From: Clostridia bacterium
Lineage (GTDB): Bacteria; Bacillota; Clostridia; Christensenellales; CAG-314
NCBI GenBank assembly: GCA_017409765.1
Contig: JAFQSA010000031.1
Coordinates: forward strand, 1 to 52,637
Reading direction: 5' to 3'
DNA length: 52,637 nt
Shown here: piece after piece, positions 18,663-21,094 of the stretch
How the letters are laid out: each line of letters opens with the position of its first letter
Numbering within the stretch: position 1 is the first letter of the stretch
Translations under genes and position numbers: made by a program
The notes under the pieces: generated by a model
Databases searched by the model: none
Told to the model about the DNA's origin: nothing
What the model saw: only the letters and a program-made list of their open reading frames with translations

Positions 18663-18734
18663 ACTCCCCCAATCTTTGCAATAGTGCATGGTTAATATCA
18701 AATTTAGATAACAAAAACTCAATTTTACAAAACA

Positions 18735-18767
18735 AAAAAGACATCGACTCAAGTTCGATGTCTTTTT
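18735..18767 (+). terminator. Rho-independent terminator of the alpha-glucan operon
   Basis: Perfect 13-base arms (AAAAAGACATCGA and its complement) around a loop of seven, ending in a T run, 70 bases after the last stop. Confidence 0.92.
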
Positions 18768-18817
18768 TGCATTTATTTACTAAAACTAAATATTTAGTAT
18801 CAATTTTATACTTAATA

Positions 18818-18844
18818 TTGACACGGGGGGGGTAGGTGTATAAT
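18818..18844 (+). promoter_or_regulatory. Promoter with G8 tract in a 15-base spacer
   Basis: Consensus TTGACA (18818-18823) and consensus TATAAT (18839-18844) are separated by only 15 bases, made of C, eight consecutive G (18825-18832), then TAGGTG. The best-supported promoters in this window have 17-base spacers. Gain of two G would restore the standard spacing. A homopolymeric tract at this place is the layout of phase-variable promoters of surface proteins. Confidence 0.75.
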
Positions 18845-18892
18845 ACTCTCAACAAACACTAAATTTTATATATCTACAACGAGGTGTATATT

Positions 18893-21037
18893 ATGAAAAA
18901 ACAAATTTTAGTAATTATTCTATTGGCCATTTTGCTTGTGAGTTGTTTGGCGCTTACAGCATGCACTGGTCCCGAAGGTCCTATCGGTCCACAAGGTCCA
19001 CAAGGCGAAACAGGACAAACTGGACCACAAGGTCCTCAAGGTGAACAAGGTATTCAAGGACCACAAGGTCCTCAAGGTGATCCTGGCCAAACAGGCCCTC
19101 AAGGCCCGCAAGGTGAAGTAGGTCCACAAGGTCCTACTGGTATTAGTATCACAAATGCACAAATTAACGAAAAGGGCGAACTTATAATCACTTTTAGTGA
19201 CGGCCAAACACAAAATCTTGGTGTAATTATTGGATCAGATGGTGAAAAAGGTGAAACAGGCTCTCAAGGTCCACAAGGCAAGCCAGGTCAAGATGGTGAA
19301 GATGGTATCACACCTCAACTCAAAATTGGTGAGGAAAACTACTGGTATGTTTCCTATGACAATGGTGTAACATGGGAAAACCTTGGTGTAAAAGCGGCTG
19401 TTCATGATGGCACCGAAGGTCTTGAGTTCTATCCACTAAACGATACAGAGTGTGCAGTTGCAGTTGGTAACGCAATATTTTTGCAAAACATCGTTATTCC
19501 ATCCAAATACTTAAATTACACAGTTACCACCATCCTTGGTCGAGAATTGTTAGAGAAAGGGGCTTTTGAGAGATGCAATAATCTCAAAAGCATAACAATC
19601 CCAGATACCATAACAAGTATTGGTAGTTATGCGTTCTATAACTGTTCCAGTTTAACAAGCATTGTTATCCCAGACAGCGTAACATCTATTGGCTCTTACG
19701 CATTCAATGGTTGCAGTAGTCTTACTAGTGTGACTTGCCCTGCAAGCGCTATTGCCTCTTTTAATTTGCAAAATATACAAAATTTCGTTATTACTTCTGG
19801 TGATATCCAAGAGGAAGCGTTAATAAGTCGTAGCAATTTGATAAGTGTAACAATTGGCGAGGGCGTTACAAGTATCGGCGCTAAAGCTTTTGATAACTGC
19901 AACAATTTGACTAGTATGACAATTTGCAACGGCATAACAAGTATTGGTTCTTATGCATTCTCTGGTTGCAGTGGACTAACAAGTATCACAATTCCAGATA
20001 GTGTAACAACGATTGGCGAGTATGCATTCGATGACTGCTCTAGTTTGACAAGTATCACAATTCCAAATAGTGTAACATCAATTGGTTATGGTGCATTCAA
20101 TAATTGCTCCAGTTTGACAAGTATCACAATTCCAGATAGTGTGACATCTATTGGCGAGTATGCATTCGATGACTGCTCTAGTTTGACAAGTATTACAATT
20201 CCCAATACTGTGACATCTATTGGCGAGTATACATTCGACGGCTGCTCTAGTTTGACAAGTATCACAATTCCAAATACTGTGACATCTATTGGTGAGTGTG
20301 CATTTTCTAATTGTTCAAATATCGAAAGTATTACCATTCCAAACAGTGTAACAAGTATTGGCGAAGGTGCATTCGAATATTGCGCAAGATTAGAGGATGT
20401 TATTTTTGAAGAAGAGAGTAACTTGACCAGTATTGGTAACCATGCATTCAGAGGCTGTGAGGATTTAGAAAGTGTAACCATTCCAAACGGTGTAACATCT
20501 ATTGGTGAATATGCATTCTCTGGTTGTGTGGATTTAGGAATCGTAACCATCCCAAAGAGTGTTACAAGTATTGGCGACTATGCATTCCAAGGTTGTGAAA
20601 GACTTAATAGTATATCCATTCCAAGTAGCGTAACATCTATTGGTGATTCTGCATTCAGTAATTGTACCAGCTTGACAAGCATTACAATTCCAAGCAGTGT
20701 AACATCTATTGGTAATTATGCATTCAGTAATTGTACCAGCTTGACAAGCATTACAATTTCAGAAGGTGTAACATCTATTGGAAATCGTGCGTTCTATGGT
20801 TGCTCCAGTCTGACTAAAGTTACAATCCCAAGTAGCGTAGTTTCTATTGGTGCTTATGCATTCTATAGTTGTAGTAAATTAACAAGTGTAACATTTGCAG
20901 ACTCTGATAATTGGTATCGTACATCATACTCTAATATGTCAGGTGGATCTAAAATGACACTTACTGATGCGGAACAAAATGCAAAGTATCTGAAGAGTAC
21001 TTATTATAACTACTACTGGTACAAAAAAGCTAACTAA
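18893..21037 (+). CDS. Surface lipoprotein with collagen-like and BspA-type leucine-rich repeats
   Basis: 714 residues from the ATG at 18893, six bases after GAGGTG. A lipoprotein signal peptide ends with lipobox LTAC (Cys 24). Next comes a collagen-like Gly-X-Y run of about 19 triplets rich in GPQ (residues 26-82), a small beta domain ([19 protein letters not shown]), and a second run of about eight triplets followed by [20 protein letters not shown]. The rest holds about 17 BspA-type leucine-rich repeats of the form [23 protein letters not shown], mostly 23 residues each. The protein ends with a Tyr-rich tail. It should be anchored outside the membrane and extend from it; BspA-type repeats often mediate binding to host or bacterial surfaces. 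Expression may vary through the G8 tract in its promoter. It is monocistronic. Confidence 0.9.
19587..20905 (+). repeat. Tandem 69-base repeats encoding leucine-rich units
   Basis: About 17 units of mostly 69 bases, each coding for a 23-residue BspA-type repeat. Some are nearly identical: a stretch of over 40 bases starting with ATTGGCGAGTATGCATTC at 20012 recurs at 20150, exactly two units later. Such identity would allow unit number to change by recombination or slippage. Confidence 0.85.
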
Positions 21038-21065: not shown

Positions 21066-21094
21066 AGCGTCATCCAAAAGGATGGCGCTTTTGT
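21066..21094 (+). terminator. Rho-independent terminator
   Basis: Arms AGCGTCATCC and GGATGGCGCT (one G-T pair) around AAAA, then TTTTGTTTT. Confidence 0.85.

Follow-up and report, generated by a model that had tools for sequence, protein, structure and literature searches.

A G8 tract in the promoter spacer of a Clostridia lipoprotein gene: a probable slippage switch of promoter spacing that recurs in parts of one bacterial order

In the promoter of Neisseria meningitidis porA, which encodes the class 1 outer membrane protein, a poly-G run is the element that determines the spacing of the boxes. The expression of porA reportedly varies with the spacing between the −10 and −35 boxes (van der Ende 1995). 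The promoter described here resembles that of porA in that a change in expression would be brought about through the −10/−35 spacing. It differs in scale, because porA is a single gene of a Gram-negative pathogen, whereas here we are dealing with a class of promoters that occurs in many genomes and is biased away from a spacing of 17 nt. Variable C runs that alter the transcription of surface proteins are also described for the promoter of the Neisseria opc gene (PMC3960869) and for the promoters of Bordetella fim2, fim3 and fimX (PMC1891110). The opc and fim systems consist of C runs at few loci per genome, whereas the runs described here are mostly of G; in the activator-dependent fim promoters, moreover, the run is located upstream of the −10 box.

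Other systems share single features with the present one. Bifidobacterium breve is a gut bacterium with slippage-prone G runs, and the available text of that study mentions G-tracts in promoter spacers, with no data given there; the pilus switches that it studied differ in being frameshifts inside genes (PMC9187656). The poly-G phasome of Campylobacter jejuni, as described in the part of the paper available, comprises 29 loci with G/C runs of 7 or more (PMC4965091). The likeness lies in the many G/C runs per genome and the difference in their position, which is inside reading frames in C. jejuni and in promoter spacers here. Invertible promoters provide promoter-level phase variation in gut bacteria (PMC11868660); as far as the available text goes, however, their mechanism is DNA inversion. 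In the partly available literature we found only such known systems and no report of a promoter class of the present kind, an absence that is weakly tested. Measured against these sources, the principle is known for single genes, and the scale of the class and the avoidance of 17 nt look new.

The window, by which we mean the whole stretch of DNA that was analysed (52,637 nt), is contig C23 of the source genome (G000), a 1.455-Mb assembly of 57 contigs. We consider it probable that the G8 tract in one of its promoters is a slipped-strand switch of promoter spacing, of a kind that recurs within the genus and in parts of the order and that would have a low default state.

The lipoprotein promoter and its surroundings

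An earlier note on this DNA had described perfect −35 and −10 boxes 15 nt apart, with a G8 run inside the spacer, in front of a gene for a collagen-like, leucine-rich repeat lipoprotein. The promoter was read directly at 18818-18844 exactly as described, and the lipobox, the collagen-like domain and the LRR_5 domain of the product are all present. The features of this region are as follows.

18733..18769, + strand: terminator-like hairpin 3′ of the upstream amylase-family gene, ahead of the promoter (consensus match only)
18818..18823, + strand: −35 box TTGACA (read in the window sequence)
18825..18832, + strand: G8 tract in the 15-nt spacer, which spans 18824-18838 (read in the window sequence)
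18839..18844, + strand: −10 box TATAAT (read in the window sequence)
18842-18847, + strand: weaker alternative −10 box AATACT, 18 nt from TTGACA (consensus match, 10/12 bases)
18881..18886, + strand: likely ribosome-binding site GAGGTG (from reading the sequence)
18893..21037, + strand: lipoprotein gene, 714 aa (ORF, domain matches, lipobox by eye and lipoprotein rule)
21066..21089, + strand: terminator-like hairpin 3′ of the lipoprotein gene (consensus match only)

From the −35 box onward, the promoter reads TTGACA, a single C, the eight G, TAGGTG and TATAAT. Perfect TTGACA/TATAAT pairs 14-20 nt apart occur three times in the window against 0.11 expected, a count that none of the shuffles reached, and the remaining two pairs both have 17-nt spacers. 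The G8 run is found once when both strands are counted (shuffle mean, 0.23), and because at least one G8 arose in 16 of 100 shuffles of the window, the run by itself is unremarkable. Taken for the window alone, this frequency would suit an accident, in which a G run happened to fall in a promoter, a reading that we consider very improbable in view of the counts from other genomes given below. The spacing arithmetic of the earlier note was correct, in that G9 gives 16 nt and G10 gives 17 nt. Because a weaker TTGACA/AATACT pair exists at 18 nt, the promoter at G8 may be weakly active instead of off.

The lipoprotein gene starts with the ATG at 18893, which is 48 nt past the −10 box. Its 714-aa product carries a signal peptide with the lipobox LTAC ending at Cys24, collagen-like repeats at aa 26-83 (7e-13) and leucine-rich repeats of the BspA type (LRR_5, 6.9e-171). 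By its sequence it qualifies as a surface or envelope component, presumably exposed at the surface. The unit formed by the promoter and the lipoprotein gene is flanked by the two terminator-like hairpins listed above; the stretch contains three such hairpins, against 1.4 expected from shuffles.

For the upstream amylase-family gene, 23 other genomes of the genus contain a long relative (68-73% identical), and G016 contains a partial one of 91% identity. No G/C run of at least 7 was present at any of these 24 amylase-gene loci, the comparison being weaker for two of them (L240 and L255), where the stretch past the gene is truncated, and the N-terminus of the lipoprotein was found at its own locus alone and at none of the 24. 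Among the loci examined, an orthologue of the window promoter is absent. Melibiase had no match at the amylase-gene loci, which end about 1.5 kb beyond that gene and are hence uninformative in this respect. With regard to carriage by phages, eight stretches of a viral collection fit a strict form of the promoter, none of them with the window's own flanks, and plasmids gave no match. The amylase-family orthologue in G005 (C1:107396-109234) contains one internal TAA stop.

Tract promoters in the source genome and its relatives

In the source genome, 10 distinct G/C runs reach a length of at least 8, and 7 of the 10 lie between a TTGAC-type −35 box and a TATAAT or TATCAT −10 box, the boxes having been assigned by reading. 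The spacers that hold them are listed here by contig.

Spacers with tracts: C8, 17 nt; C23 (window), 15 nt; C32, 14 nt; C35, 16 nt; C57, 19 nt
Spacers with C-run tracts: C41, 20 nt; C17, 14 nt

What exceeds chance is the placement of the runs inside promoter spacers, not the runs as such. In 70 tract-free canonical spacers the longest G run was no longer than 4, and the long runs therefore form a separate class and not the end of a continuum. Two of the 10 runs (C38 and C55:68385) are without explanation. The remaining one, a G8, is situated directly 3′ of a TACAAT box, upstream of a thioesterase-like gene (L048 1495-1508; C55:11068); located at the expected transcription start, it could act on initiation instead of spacing. 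A G9 run on the same contig lies near repeated units containing tattgcattta and gcaataatt (L049; C55:66885-69892).

How widely does this arrangement occur? We searched for a strict pattern, consisting of TTGAC followed by at least seven G and then TATAAT, with the reversed pattern, which has an equal composition, as the control. Within the genus, 50 strict matches were found in 18 of 25 genomes, and the C-run version gave five matches in 4 of 25 genomes; the control gave 0 in both cases. Across the family, matches occurred in 20 of 41 genomes, including 2 of the 16 outside the genus. In the order, 56 of 297 genomes, from 27 of 125 genera, contained 154 matches altogether, again with a control of 0; the figure of 154 is a table sum, of which 150 were listed and the 4 unlisted were left out of the analysis, and those listed fall mainly in families f1, f15, f28 and f32. 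For the class as a whole, an accidental origin is already refuted by the control of equal composition (50 versus 0 in the genus, 154 versus 0 in the order). In a phylum sample of 398 genomes, 12 of the 397 other genomes gave one match each, versus 7 matches for the control, which is near background. Because the order matches stand against an empty control and the phylum sample is near background, the tract-promoter design belongs to parts of this order. A genome from another genus of the family (G035) has a G15 run in a 22-nt spacer, with a lipoprotein gene next to it (L119 1501-1534).

Tract promoters are also distinguished by the genes behind them. The first open reading frame encodes a lipoprotein, as called by our own rule, at 22 of 51 tract promoters versus 1 of 42 canonical promoters of the source genome (P 2e-6), the set of 51 comprising the genus plus two promoters of other genomes in the family, with C-run promoters included. 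When five genomes were compared, a lipoprotein came next in 14 of 24 tract promoters versus 2 of 25 control promoters; of these 14, two are lipoproteins of G006 that nearly duplicate each other, and the matched control drew 30 of 172 canonical promoters. A 734-aa LRR lipoprotein in G008 (L058) is preceded by TTGACA, 7 nt, G9 and TAGAAT, an arrangement that escapes the strict pattern. Since tract promoters also precede genes for, among others, a TldD-like peptidase, a class II FBP aldolase, ABC ATPases and membrane proteins, the class extends beyond surface proteins, and in the source genome the window's gene is the only lipoprotein among six classed tract-promoter genes (C8 left out). An assignment of the C35 gene as TldD-like was dropped, no NCBIfam family having matched. 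The earlier note had treated a single gene; its lipoprotein promoter is confirmed, and the evidence speaks for a class of promoters of which that gene's is one member.

We considered that a loss of mismatch repair might have caused instability in these runs. This cause was ruled out by the finding of mutS1 above the cut-off in 23 of 25 genus genomes, and any instability would thus have to stem from run length itself. One genus genome, G019, has no mutS1 match though it is 97% complete, and contains three G-run promoters and one C-run promoter of the spacer type.

Run length and promoter spacing

For the analysis of spacing, the 50 genus matches were reduced to 48 once equal stretches were merged, and the order part was reduced to 106 by counting overlapping readings in G227 once and excluding the G035 family match. 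The 154 records of this set became 144 distinct tract promoters after equal flank-plus-tract records within one lineage were merged. Their runs are 7 to 14 long and sit anywhere between the boxes, and the spacing ranges from 11 to 30 nt. When tract-free TTGACA..TATAAT pairs with a gap of 10-26 were collected from the source genome, 44 of 60 had a spacing of exactly 17 nt, and we take 17 nt to be the strong state on the strength of these tract-free promoters. In the 144 tract promoters, 36 spacers are of 16 nt, 25 of 18 nt and only 11 of 17 nt. The share at 17 nt is 2/46 in the genus, 0/26 in f15, 7/55 in f32 and 1/9 in f28, the f32 value counting against the proposed switch.

Three comparisons, all of which ignore shared ancestry, bear on this distribution. 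First, permuting the lengths over the flanks placed a mean of 18.8 promoters at 17 nt versus the 11 observed (one-sided P 0.013). Second, flanks with which G9 yields 17 nt carry a G9 in 3 of 13 cases, versus 47 of 66 for flanks with which it yields 16 or 18 nt (P 0.003). Third, G10 is used in 1 of 36 cases where it gives 17 nt versus 25 of 108 elsewhere (P 0.005). A linear correlation between run length and flank length was not significant. These observations suggest that the spacing puts a constraint on the length of the run. Because 17-nt spacings are scarce among the assembled tract promoters, most of these would be held one or two bases off the strong spacing, and the commonest genotype in the sampled populations would usually not be the strong one. 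That the spacing of the assembled tract promoters, taken together, departs from 17 nt is invisible from the window alone.

Could the run instead be a fixed operator or structural element, with a length of about 9 that does not vary and a promoter strength determined by a regulator that reads poly-G or by the altered geometry of such DNA? Several features would be in keeping with such an element, namely the sharp concentration of lengths at G9 (29 of the 48 genus promoters), the great preference for G over C on the non-template strand (50 versus 5 matches in the genus), the C immediately before the run in 75 of 144 promoters, the TA directly after it in 39 of the promoters with at least two bases between the run and the −10 box, and the equal lengths in several sets of copies. 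We nevertheless consider a fixed element unlikely, in that the position of the run is free between boxes spaced 11 to 30 nt apart, the flanks share nothing beyond the C and the TA, related copies differ in length, and one fixed geometry does not fit two peaks flanking 17 nt. The strand bias is also weakened as proof of a G-reading factor, because a 5 to 7-fold excess of G over C is already expected from the base composition of tract-free spacers, against the roughly 10-fold excess observed. Operators of the CsoR/RcnR type consist of a G run of fixed length with conserved inverted half-sites on both sides. A poly-G operator of this type was rejected for the tract promoters, the runs of which are 7 to 14 long and have no shared flanks beyond C/TA.

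The spacing switch that we favour would leave traces as differences in length between related promoters, and one-base differences were found in five comparisons, all outside the window's locus, the other sets of copies being equal. Two copies in G128, which are 95% identical over 625 bp, carry G11 and G12. Between G301 and G244, homologues that are 79% identical over 442 bp differ by G8 versus G9, the remainder of the spacer being equal. The G003 paralogues L104 and L126 have G8 and G9, plus an extra C and other changes; L098 and L140 differ by G9 versus G10 and by substitutions ahead of the run; and L115 (G016) and L118 (source genome) differ by C9 versus C10 and by further changes behind it. 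In the last comparison, among six genomes matching the gene, the C run is visible in the 110 nt of G000 and G016 only, and the L263 stretch, which fell inside the gene, was uninformative.

The sets of equal copies bear on another reading, namely that promoter strength has been tuned in evolution, with lengths that are stable within a population and no switching. All four matches in G006 have G10, all four copies in G138 have G9, and two copies in G009, identical over 258 bp, have the same run; the presence of mutS1 in most of the genus is also compatible with stable lengths. Against tuning stand the two copies within the G128 genome that are one G apart, and the general tendency of G or C runs to slip once they are 8 or longer. 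We regard it as quite improbable.

The predicted switch and its meaning

The earlier note had proposed phase variation at the window's promoter. Slippage is the best account of the recurrence, the empty control, the length differences, the lipoprotein bias and the spacing taken together, and this part of the proposal is supported; a mixture of lengths in the population and an effect on expression are predicted by it. In the mechanism that we propose, replication slippage would add or remove a G, and the spacing would shift from its present 15 nt, which is predicted to be weak. At G10 it would arrive at 17 nt, the predicted strong state. With most tract promoters one or two bases off the strong spacing, expression would commonly be low, with rare slips raising that of single genes in some cells. 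Slippage within a population, its effect on transcription, the surface exposure of the products and a role in bet-hedging are all put forward here from sequence.

More tentatively, we speculate that an off-by-one code might exist in parts of the order, in which perfect boxes are combined with a run of about G9 that holds the spacing one or two bases off 17 nt. Such a code would set a low default, would leave each gene a single slip away from its full promoter strength and could amount to a combinatorial phasome at the level of transcription, with lipoproteins foremost among its targets in the genus.

A recurrent promoter class, spread across many genomes of one order and with a measurable bias off 17 nt, can be recognized from sequence alone, and its members would make a natural test set for the relationship between spacing and promoter strength. 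If reads confirm the proposed switching, the state of many lipoprotein genes could be extracted from metagenomes that are already available. Strain comparisons that skip one-base indels in G runs would, if this is confirmed, miss a main source of envelope variation.
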